Below are positions 7,033 through 52,366 of a stretch of 64,000 nt of DNA, one piece after another. Under the pieces are notes generated by a model that was given only the letters and a program-made list of their open reading frames with translations, was not told the DNA's origin and made no database searches. Each line of letters begins with the position of its first letter. The stretch's first letter is position 1. A program made the position numbers and the translations under genes. The DNA comes from an uncultured Bacteroides sp. (GTDB taxonomy: Bacteria > Bacteroidota > Bacteroidia > Bacteroidales > Bacteroidaceae): positions 17,426 to 81,425 of the forward strand of contig CAMWGU010000002.1 of assembly GCA_947173895.1 (NCBI GenBank). Direction: 5' to 3'.

Positions 7033-7097
7033 CTGCTGCCACTACTGTCTTCGGCAATCCTGCCCTGTCGGCAGACCGTTCCGGTGAGTGGCAGCAG
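7033..7097 (+). terminator. Long hairpin downstream of head-GIN gene
   Basis: CTGCTGCCACT (7033-7043) and AGTGGCAGCAG (7087-7097) are perfect inverted complements, followed by a T-rich stretch. Confidence 0.45.
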
Positions 7098-7156
7098 TTT
7101 GTTCCTTTGCCTGATTACCCCTTCACACAGGCCACACTATTGATGTGATTCTACTT

Positions 7157-7402
7157 TTCCCTTCCTCCTTTCATTATCCGCTGAAACGCCCTGTGGATGG
7201 GGATTCCGAGAGTGAAAGGACACTCCGTAGGCTCCCTTCATCCTCCTTTCATTGGCACATGAAAGCAGCATAGCGAAAATCGCTGAAGGCAGATGTGAAG
7301 GGACGTGGGCAACATGGCTGAAAGGAGGATGAAGGGAGGTACTGTCATTTTTAACCGGCTGATTGATAGTCACTTCAGGTGAAAATGAAAGGATGAAGGG
7401 AG
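7157..7402 (+). mobile_element. MITE-like non-coding element, copy A
   Basis: Ends CCCTTCCTCCTTTCATTA / AATGAAAGGATGAAGGGAG are near-inverted repeats; internal 20-nt perfect inverted repeat 7232-7251 / 7319-7338; homologous in reverse orientation to 24055-24310. Confidence 0.65.
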
Positions 7403-7440
7403 ACGGGGAAAAAGCAACCTGATGAGGGGGAGATGTCCTC

Positions 7441-7540
7441 TGTATGTATGTGTGAGGCTGCACGTACGTACGTGTGAGGCTATACATACGTATGTGTAGG
7501 CCTACACGTACGTATGTACAAGCCCACACATACGTATGTG
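7441..7540. repeat. Tandem palindrome array, TACGTA core, 22-nt pitch, array A
   Basis: TACGTA cores at 7465, 7487, 7509, 7531 (exact 22-nt spacing) plus degenerate TATGTA at 7443. Confidence 0.9.
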
Positions 7541-7590
7541 TTTTACGACAAGACGGAATGTGTTGCGGTGCACATGCAGGTCTGTGCTGT

Positions 7591-7678
7591 GAACAAGCCA
7601 AGCTCGTGCAACGAACAAGCTAAGCTTGTACGGCGAACAAGCCTTCATGTTCCGGTGAACAGGCCTTCATGTTTCGTG
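7591..7678. repeat. Second tandem array: four 22-nt GAACAAGCC/T... units with imperfect palindromes
   Basis: Units start at 7591, 7613, 7635, 7657; unit 2 contains perfect ACAAGCT-A-AGCTTGT. Confidence 0.85.
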
Positions 7679-7791
7679 ATTTCCTTGCATCCAATGACCT
7701 TTTGTGCCAAATATTCGATTCCTACTTCTCTTGACAAATGCTTTTTGATATTTGCAGAACGTTACCCCATTAAACCATAGCACTACCATTA

Positions 7792-7929
7792 ATCAATGGT
7801 TTTGAGGAACGGCTGACAAATGTACCGGCGGAATCTTTCAACGCTGAAATCAAGGCTCTTAGAAGTCTGTTGAAAGGAGTTGCTGATGTGAAATCCTTCA
7901 TGCTCGGATGGGCTACTTTATATGCGTAA
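7792..7929 (+). pseudogene. C-terminal relic of a transposase (ISL3-family-like)
   Basis: Translation INGFEERLTNVPAESFNAEIKALRSLLKGVADVKSFMLGWATLYA-stop resembles the C-terminus of ISL3/IS204-type transposases (NAxAESFNAKIKAFR). Confidence 0.65.
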
Positions 7930-8244
7930 AAGAAATTATCAACAACCGGAAATGTCCGCTGGTCCGTATTCACCTTTCCTATTGGTTAATAAGTGCAAAA
8001 AAGGAGAGAACTGACTACCTATACATGAAACTGACCTGTCTTAATGATACATATAGGGATTATTCCCGGACAATATTGTGTGTCGAATGAAGGTTTGGAA
8101 AGGCAGGACGAAAGTTTCGTTTGAAGATATACAGGTTGTTTGGATGGAGAGAAGAAACACACATTTGATTTATGATAGGAGTTATATTAAGGAGTTTACG
8201 GATAGAAGCTGGTTTATCTGCCATTCAGGTGGCAGATAGGCTAC

Positions 8245-8463
8245 ACATATCCGAGTCAACTTACCGTAATGAACTATACGTTATATTATTGGGACAACGA
8301 ATGGAAACCTGTGGAAGAAGTGAAAGGTTGTGATGACTTTGTTTCTTTCGGGCAAGTGCCTGTCGGAGGCTTGTATTTGATGAAAAGTTCTGTACCGGTA
8401 AAAGGAACTTATTCTAATGAAAGGATTTTTACTTATGCTAACGGAACGCTTAACTGGTGGTGA
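8245..8463 (+). pseudogene. C-terminal relic of a larger Bacteroidetes surface/secreted protein
   Basis: Reading frame YPSQLTVMNYTLYYWDNEWKPVEEV...ERIFTYANGTLNWW-stop resembles the C-terminal tail of larger Bacteroides lipoproteins; N-terminal body absent. Confidence 0.45.
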
Positions 8464-23910: not shown

Positions 23911-24010
23911 GTACATACGTACGTGTAGGCTTATGCATACGTATGTGTAGCCCGATGCATACGTATGTGTAGGCTTATGCATACGTACGTGTAACCCGAT
24001 GCTTATGCAA
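23911..24010. repeat. Tandem palindrome array, TACGTA core, 22-nt pitch, array B
   Basis: TACGTA cores at 23916, 23938, 23960, 23982 (exact 22-nt spacing), with a degraded fifth unit. Confidence 0.9.
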
Positions 24011-24054
24011 GAGCGGATAGTATCACCCCTTCATCAGGTTGCTTCTTCCCCTTC

Positions 24055-24310
24055 CCCCTTCATCCTTTCATTTTAGGTAAAACCATCTATCAATCAATCG
24101 GTTGAAGATGATAGGGCATCCCCTCACGACCCTTTCAGCCACCGGCATGAGTCCTTTCACATCTGCCTTCGGCGGTTTCACACCATACAGCCTTTGTGTG
24201 CCGATGAAGGGAGGCTGAAAGGAGGATGAAGGGAGCCGACGGAGTGTCCTCTTACCCTCGGAAGCCCCATCGGCAGGGCGTTTCGGCGGATAATGAAAGG
24301 ATGAAGGGAG
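24055..24310 (-). mobile_element. MITE-like non-coding element, copy B (inverted relative to copy A)
   Basis: Reverse complement aligns with 7157-7402 (TTCATTATCCGC-GAAACGCCCTG, GGACACTCCGT-GGCTCCCTTCATCCTCCTTTCA, GCAGATGTGAA); terminal inverted repeats CCCTTCATCCTTTCATT / AATGAAAGGATGAAGGG. Confidence 0.65.
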
Positions 24311-24443
24311 AGACTGAATTATTAAAAGAACAGTTTCTAAAACTATGTCGGCACAACAATTATTAACAAATTGGCATGCAGTCTTTCTCCAATTGCTCCA
24401 CTATATATAGAACACAACCTATTTTATCAACGAACTAAAACTA

Positions 24444-50700: not shown

Positions 50701-50855
50701 AGAAAATATTGCTTGAAACCAATGAAATTAACTATTTTTCGGTTTGCAGGTCACGGCTTTTGTGCTTTGGGAGGCTACCCCCCATGATGGGCTTTCTGTC
50801 GTTGGTTGCATGGTAGAAACAAAGCGATTATTTTGTGTCTAAAAACACGGCTTTT

Positions 50856-50940
50856 TACACGTACGTATGTGTAGCCCCACACATACGTATGTATACCCCC
50901 TATACATACGTACGTGTAGGCTCACACGTACGTACGTGTT
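50856..50940. repeat. Tandem palindrome array, TACGTA core, 22-23-nt pitch, array C
   Basis: TACGTA cores at 50862, 50884, 50907, 50929. Confidence 0.9.
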
Positions 50941-51070: not shown

Positions 51071-52366
51071 CTACCTTAGATCAATGAATTTGATGACCTT
51101 CCGGCTCATGGGTGGCATCTGTATCTTTGCAATGTATTCTGCCGGCTCGAAGTGGATGTTCGGAGCCACCCGCACTTTGGAGCGGAACAGGTCTTTTATC
51201 TCTTTCACAAAGGCTTCGCTATGGTTTTCACTGCCTATGCGGATCAGTATCTCGTCTGTTCCCAGTTCGTTGGTATATACCTCTACTATATAGTTCTTTA
51301 TGTTGGGGATATTGTCCAGGATGTCGAACAGGGCAGGCGGATAGAGCGTGGTACCTTTGTATTTGATCATTTGCCCTTTGCGGCCCAGTATGGGGCTGAG
51401 GCGGATGGTGTTTCGTCCGCATGTGCAGGGTTCGTTGTAGTGGAAACAGATGTCTCCCGTCTTGAAACGGAGCAGTGGCATTCCTCTTACTCCTAGGGTG
51501 GTGATAGTCACTTCGCCCGCTTCCCCGTCTTTCACGGGCTGGTTGTTGTCGTCCAGAAACTCCACGATGATCAGTTCCGGCTGGAGATGGCCGCCTCGCA
51601 ATGCATCGCATTCGGTAAACGATGACTGCATTTCGGTAGATGCGTAGGTGGAATACAGTTTCAGCGATTCCCATTTTTCGTGTATTCGTCTGCCCAGCGT
51701 GTTCAGGGCGAAGTCGGGGGTGCGGAGCGCCTCGCCTATGCAGACACATTTTTGCATGGAGCACTGGGAGTAGTCGATTTGGTTCTTTTCGGCAAATTCG
51801 ATGAGTTTGATCAGAAAAGAAGGCACCACTATGCCGCAGGTGGGATGAATGCGGCGGATGGTGTCCCATTGTAGTTCGGGGATTCCGTTGCCCACGCGTG
51901 CCACTCCCATGCCTAGTTCGCGCGCTCCCATGTAATAGGCCAGACCGGCCATGAAGCGCCTGTCGATGGTGGTCATAAGTTGCAACACGTCGTGCTTGCC
52001 GCATCCGGCGGTGGTGAAGGACAGATATTCGTTATAGGCCAGCCGATCAAGGTCGCCCGAAGTCAGAACGAAGGTGACCGGATCGCCCAAGGTGCCCGAC
52101 GTAGTGACATAGTCGATGATTTCGTCGCGGCTTACACACACAAAGTCTTCATTATGAAGTTGCAGGTCGGTTTTGGTGGTGACGGGTATCTGTTGCAGGT
52201 CTTCCAGGGTCTTTATCCGCTGTATGTCGATGTGGTGTGTCCGGAACAGGCGTTGGTAAAATCGGGAATGATTCTGTAGATAGAGCAGTTCTTCGGCCAG
52301 GCGTCTTTCCTGGTATTGCTTGATCTCTTCGGGTGAGCGGAATTGTATTTCAGGGTTCTTGTTCAT
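51071..52366 (-). CDS. Phenylacetate-CoA ligase-like adenylate-forming enzyme
   Basis: TTSGTLGDPVTFVLT, YASTEMQSSF, PLLRFKTGDICFHYNEPCTCGR. Confidence 0.9.
   Translation of the reverse strand: MNKNPEIQFRSPEEIKQYQERRLAEELLYLQNHSRFYQRLFRTHHIDIQRIKTLEDLQQIPVTTKTDLQLHNEDFVCVSRDEIIDYVTTSGTLGDPVTFVLTSGDLDRLAYNEYLSFTTAGCGKHDVLQLMTTIDRRFMAGLAYYMGARELGMGVARVGNGIPELQWDTIRRIHPTCGIVVPSFLIKLIEFAEKNQIDYSQCSMQKCVCIGEALRTPDFALNTLGRRIHEKWESLKLYSTYASTEMQSSFTECDALRGGHLQPELIIVEFLDDNNQPVKDGEAGEVTITTLGVRGMPLLRFKTGDICFHYNEPCTCGRNTIRLSPILGRKGQMIKYKGTTLYPPALFDILDNIPNIKNYIVEVYTNELGTDEILIRIGSENHSEAFVKEIKDLFRSKVRVAPNIHFEPAEYIAKIQMPPMSRKVIKFIDLR

Follow-up and report, generated by a model that had tools for sequence, protein, structure and literature searches.

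The stretch of DNA analysed here, 64,000 nucleotides long and hereafter called the window, contains a run of TACGTA palindromes repeated at a pitch of exactly 22 nt, which raises the question of what such an array is, what would recognise it and how it came to its present place. Taken as a whole, and with slightly more confidence than doubt, the answer that we propose is that this array (array A) would represent iteron-like sites for an initiator helicase, belonging to a decayed VapE unit carried on ISL3 ends. The window is part of a 3.26-Mb genome assembly (G000; 143 contigs, 94.8% complete), which its U32 peptidase assigns to Phocaeicola, close to P. vulgatus.

Palindrome arrays in the window and across the genome

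Array A (7441..7541, no strand assigned) consists of four exact TACGTA dyads at 7465, 7487, 7509 and 7531, preceded by a degenerate TATGTA unit at 7443, every step being 22 nt. These positions, as well as the exact pitch, had been reported in the initial annotation and were confirmed, and the pattern is far above chance, the motif TACGTA-N16-TACGTA with at most one mismatch giving 9 matches in the window versus 0.04 expected. Both sister arrays that had been announced at 23.9 kb and 50.9 kb are likewise real. The former (23914..24002, no strand assigned) has four exact cores with steps of 22 nt throughout, and the leader block described below adjoins it in reverse orientation, at about 24020-24320. 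The latter (50857..50939, no strand assigned) is solitary, has no leader block and shows core steps of 22, 23 and 22 nt; four relatives, P. vulgatus among them, lack it at the orthologous site. The insertion carrying this array is bracketed by two copies, at window positions 50711-50741 and 51072-51102, of a sequence of about 30 nt that matches the end of the neighbouring gene, while the relatives have a single copy; the doubled sequence is possibly a long target duplication or a recombination scar.

The linkers between the TACGTA cores are mutually related, as had been noted from their loosely shared sequence, and they vary mostly by transitions around GTGTRGGCYYACAC. The exclusion of a CRISPR array also holds, since these linkers are related palindromes and not unique spacers between identical repeats. 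Alternating purine-pyrimidine DNA (Z-DNA) was another candidate and was rejected on the non-alternating linkers of the TACGTA-core arrays of a second genome, G005.

The same spacing recurs throughout the genome. Indeed, a genome-wide search, which had been suggested along with the array, returned 225 spaced TACGTA core pairs and 116 spaced triples, versus 7 and 4, respectively, in a reversed-pattern control, and about a hundred similar four-palindrome blocks are spread across the genome, mostly in intergenic positions. These arrays, present far beyond the window, correspond to no known annotated repeat class and to no conserved coding gene, and searches among open-licence papers returned no report of such arrays. 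In a census covering a 1.23-Mb sample of the genome, with gene context taken from a simple codon-usage gene caller, 38 of the 47 arrays span exactly 72 nt from the first to the last core, which corresponds to four units, cases with a changed core included. This constancy argues for a fixed module and not for a variable tandem repeat.

Two kinds of arrays can be distinguished. In composite arrays, to which array A belongs, one side is occupied by a conserved leader block and the other by TTTTACGACAAGGCGG, joined in most of them by a second 22-nt array. Solitary arrays are about 100 nt long and are built of ACACG, four units and CGTGT between A/T tracts; they often contain a divergent CATACGGYCGC unit, a motif that occurs 47 times in the genome versus twice for its control, and many of the copies terminate in CGTGTTTTT. 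When solitary arrays are aligned, most array columns retain 1-2 bits and the signal in the flanks drops to background over some tens of bases. The gaps in which they lie are co-directional in 10 cases, divergent in 6 and convergent in 6 (p=0.52 relative to intergenic length). Among the co-directional arrays with a CATACGG unit, a set too small to carry weight, five have the orientation of the genes and a sixth shares it by its flanks only.

A composite element and its VapE-like helicase gene

While the initial annotation was right that the dyad array recurs, and its DNA-level reading fits best, it had missed that array A belongs to a composite element, that this element is linked to vapE and that it has decayed beside an ISL3 remnant. 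The element is organised, in order, as leader block, TACGTA array, second 22-nt array and promoter. The leader block (7080..7436, + strand) contains several GGATGAAGGGAG / CCTTTCATCC motifs, ends with ...AAGCAACCTGATGAGGGGGAGATGTCCTCTG and could be aligned with 17 further copies from the genome sample as well as with an intact copy (G000:C108); in the window, the left end of the element is truncated at this block. Beyond array A, Tandem Repeats Finder delineates array B (7584..7673, no strand assigned), a second 22-nt tandem array of GAACAAGCC..GCTTGT dyads, of a type that also precedes another vapE gene, a VirE-like one (G000:C72; P. dorei). It is followed by a promoter-like TTGACAAATGCTTTTTGATATTTGC (7731..7755, + strand), judged by the Bacteroidetes -7 motif, TAnnTTTG, and located where the vapE promoter stands in intact copies. 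The vapE gene itself is missing. In its place, the leader is joined to the final 36 codons of an ISL3-family transposase, a 3'-end remnant (NVPAESFNAEIKALRSLLKGVADVKSFMLGWATLYA-stop; 7819..7929, + strand) that resembles the 3' end of the transposase at G000:C11:51201, and then to the right terminal inverted repeat GGAAATGTCCGCTGGTCC of the element or ISL3 insertion sequence (7948..7965, + strand). The orthologous site in P. vulgatus, P. sartorii and another relative measures about 0.12 kb, versus 1.54 kb in the window. Farther on, a possible small XRE-like HTH frame was noticed by eye at window positions 8180-8330, in an insertion-rich gap between a DUF2807 gene and the next conserved gene.

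Several composite arrays have downstream of them a promoter of the Bacteroidetes type and the start of a gene, whose first codons are followed by a jump to the last ones, and longer copies of the element are located at contig ends. In the intact C108 copy, the block, the TACGTA array, a second array, the promoter and a complete vapE gene succeed one another. The product of a sister copy matches the profiles VapE-like PF05272 (E=4.7e-27) and DUF3874 PF12990 (E=7.9e-23), and the Walker-type residues QG..KS, DE, N and RR are invariant or near-invariant. The AlphaFold model of VapE has a mean pLDDT of 74.8, being high from about residue 160 and poor at residues 53-153. Its best fold match is PriRep1 with dsDNA (E=1.9e-17), a replication protein of SaPI, followed by NrS-1 and D5-type helicases, and a profile search of VapE retrieved the same PriRep1 entry (PDB 7pds; 4.1e-34). 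By profiles, AAA+ motifs and fold match, the protein is hence a member of the VapE-like / D5-type helicases (PF05272, PF12990).

In the lineage of the window, this unit is embedded in an ISL3-family insertion sequence and has been spread by ISL3 ends. The C108 copy begins with GGATCAGCGGATATTTCTGGTTGGTA, and other copies finish with TACCAACCGGAAATATCCGCTGACCC before passing into unique DNA; the contigs read contain no copy in which both ends are preserved. The GGGTCAGCGGATATTTCC ends match those of the resident ISL3 insertion sequence (G000:C11:51201-52034), the two sets of ends being identical, and the vapE copies finish in a tail similar to the 3' end of the resident transposase. This insertion sequence contains one internal stop codon: its transposase, the only ISL3 one detected in the assembly by Pfam search, has an in-frame TGA, so that the present mobiliser may be inactive or absent from the assembly. 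On the vapE units of P. vulgatus and of the genomes G002 and G015, ISL3 ends were not found; in the latter two (L313-L325), the homologous stretch shared by the copies begins about 0.9 kb ahead of vapE and closes at its stop codon, and the lack of ISL3 ends points to another way of spreading there. As regards the window, the identity of array A is well supported: a decayed VapE-helicase unit, carried on ISL3 ends, has left behind this iteron-like array.

Arrays and vapE genes within and beyond the genus

The link between arrays and vapE is general in the genus. Among 38 distinct vapE-like genes of Phocaeicola, 23 are preceded, at no more than 700 nt, by a 21-23-nt array and 15 have no detected array; downstream, an array accompanies 1 of 32 such genes, and there is none at other lags (p=1.6e-7). 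As background, 45 of 1031 windows of 1.2 kb hold an array. Most of the arrays upstream of vapE in P. vulgatus, P. dorei and G005 consist of four TCACNNNNGTGA dyads at exact 22-nt pitch and are located about 120-290 nt before the vapE start. They differ from the TACGTA arrays in sequence and share their geometry, and P. vulgatus also possesses a solo array of the TCACNNNNGTGA family. All five genus genomes with a full-length MNVF-type vapE have TACGTA arrays as well (Fisher p=3.5e-6, from the presence table), and two further genus genomes have TACGTA arrays with only a degenerate or distant vapE. Of the vapE-linked TACGTA arrays, those of G002 and G015 include a divergent CATACGGTGGC unit, like the solitary arrays of the window genome. 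Solo arrays far outnumber vapE genes.

Outside the genus, an upstream array was found at 0 of 24 vapE homologues, and a universal rule placing arrays upstream of vapE was rejected on this count; downstream, 5 of the 24 have a 21-23-nt array (L348, L349, L355, L366 and L370). Arrays with other palindromes in Bacteroides, Prevotella and Segatella have no vapE within reach in the same stretch, so that a link to vapE is not claimable for them. In stretches from Phocaeicola, Bacteroides, Prevotella and Segatella (L097-L149), 21-23-nt arrays predominate among tandem repeats of this size; they are of many sequences, and more than half of them are significantly palindromic.

Candidate role of the arrays and competing explanations

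Most probably, the palindromes serve, or once served, as landing sites for the candidate helicase. An intact element would comprise a leader block, at least one 21-23-nt palindrome array, a promoter and the gene of an initiator-type helicase of the VapE-like/DUF3874 kind. With 22 bp amounting to about two helical turns, all dyads would be displayed on one face of the DNA, as had been proposed from the outset, and a DNA-level array is indeed the best fit. The helicase may bind the four dyads, probably via its C-terminal (DUF3874) domain, and could thereby load on adjacent DNA and either start replication of its own element or control it. Solo arrays would be copies or relics with the same sites, and in the window vapE was deleted and the array left behind. 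Among the features of an iteron origin, regular helical spacing is found (22 nt, usually four dyads), as is an adjacent initiator helicase gene (C108; 23 of 38 genes in the genus, 0 of 24 upstream outside it). Several arrays of differing sequence occur in some vapE leaders, which counts against a single sequence-specific initiator, as this would need one type. A more far-reaching proposal, by which the array geometry persists, the recognised sequence changes along with the helicase and some 100 solo arrays per genome are active helicase-loading sites serving extra initiation or amplification, appears to us distinctly doubtful.

Comparable arrangements are known. Plasmid iteron origins such as that of R6K have 22-bp iterons beside an initiator gene, and resemble the present arrays by their tandem sites, about two helical turns apart and next to the gene of the initiator; their Rep proteins are, however, of the winged-helix pi/RepA type, whereas a VapE/D5-type helicase is encoded here, on dispersed chromosomal elements. 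In SaPI, Rep helicases recognise iterons adjoining their own genes and the origin lies directly downstream of rep, and Cch2 of SCCmec binds direct repeats adjoining its gene (PMC7581432). As with SaPI Rep/PriRep1 and SCCmec Cch2, the gene of a D5/VapE-type helicase is accompanied, in a mobile element, by a few clustered direct repeats, and array A may work like these iteron-helicase modules, its place among replication origins being putative. SaPI and SCCmec have short iterons and an origin located directly downstream, whereas the sites predicted here are palindromes with a 22-nt pitch, usually four in number, lying upstream and also occurring solo. The downstream arrays at 5 of the 24 vapE homologues outside the genus recall SaPI, with its origin downstream of rep.

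A multi-hairpin RNA had been put forward as an alternative. Such a transcript terminator or stabiliser would be consistent with the long hairpin into which the array folds as RNA (about -45 to -53 kcal/mol) and with the CGTGTTTTT closing many solitary copies, but the hairpin is uninformative, since any run of palindromes must fold. The half-sites on either side of TACGTA change independently of each other (odds ratio 1.42, p=0.28), and pairing within the unit, the linker or the whole array, which makes three pairing schemes, showed no Watson-Crick excess over shuffles, in a comparison of limited power given that variation is mostly transitions. Independent half-sites and the lack of compensatory change argue against a selected multi-hairpin RNA. 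Moreover, many arrays lie between divergent genes, the array at C24 is already preceded by a terminator-like hairpin, and no Rfam match was found in the window. Lacking covariation, placement bias with gene direction and an Rfam match, the RNA hairpin or terminator was rejected, in line with the earlier statement that the array is no simple terminator, and we give an RNA element hardly any weight. Independent half-sites fit instead the pattern expected of a symmetric protein site with degenerate half-sites and, with the dyad symmetry, would suit a dimeric regulator. The arrays could hence be operators, that is, autoregulatory or host-repressor sites controlling vapE transcription without a role in replication, the solo arrays titrating the repressor or controlling their neighbours; the location of the TCACNNNNGTGA-type arrays before the vapE start is in keeping with this. 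Four regular dyads beside a helicase gene are, however, more typical of initiators, and solo arrays are indifferent to the direction of neighbouring genes (10/6/6, p=0.52). We regard an operator array as possible but unlikely.

A passive MITE-like repeat, i.e., structural DNA devoid of host function and copied by ISL3 or another transposase, would be akin to BrickBuilt of Porphyromonas gingivalis. BrickBuilt (PMC4596501) is likewise a dispersed, intergenic repeat of Bacteroidales, with 23-nt tandem repeats between a leader and a tail; the same leader-array-tail plan, the ISL3 ends and the fact that, by comparison with relatives, arrays have been inserted at the 7.4-kb, 50.9-kb and C24 sites speak for such a repeat. 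However, the number of BrickBuilt units varies from 1 to 22.8 and no helicase gene appears in the description consulted, whereas here four dyads are fixed in company with vapE and ISL3 ends; with exactly four cores in 38 of 47 arrays, the variable unit number of a BrickBuilt-like minisatellite MITE was not found. Array columns are also much better conserved than the flanks, and the same geometry recurs with other sequences at vapE genes. We therefore see a passive repeat as distinctly unlikely. With their one-face geometry and a number of roughly a hundred per genome, mostly between genes, the arrays might also serve a host chromosome-organising or nucleoid protein and be dispersed for that purpose, but the array sequence differs between close species and tracks the vapE subfamily, and arrays are missing at orthologous sites, which renders this highly improbable. 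As for REP/BIME repeats moved by a RAYT transposase (PMC2817692, PMC3733652), they share with the arrays a dispersed, intergenic and palindromic nature and a high copy number, about a hundred here. Y1_Tnp (PF01797), and with it RAYT, was not found in the genome, by which a RAYT-driven REP is largely refuted; the regular 22-nt tandem pitch and the vapE link are further differences, and the chance of this explanation is negligible.

Through its association with vapE, a common tandem repeat gains an identity: in Phocaeicola, palindromic arrays of 21-23 nt go together with VapE-like initiator helicases. If, as we favour, the helicase binds these arrays, matched helicase-array pairs would constitute a natural series for the evolution of initiator specificity, and, given the many solo arrays, it could be asked whether mobile-element helicases act at dispersed sites on the chromosomes of dominant gut bacteria. 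A particular assortment is seen in P. vulgatus at 1.73 Mb (L321), where 21-23-nt arrays of the GAACA, TTTTAAAAA, ATTAGTAACG, TACGTA and CCAAGTTCCATT types stand consecutively before one vapE.
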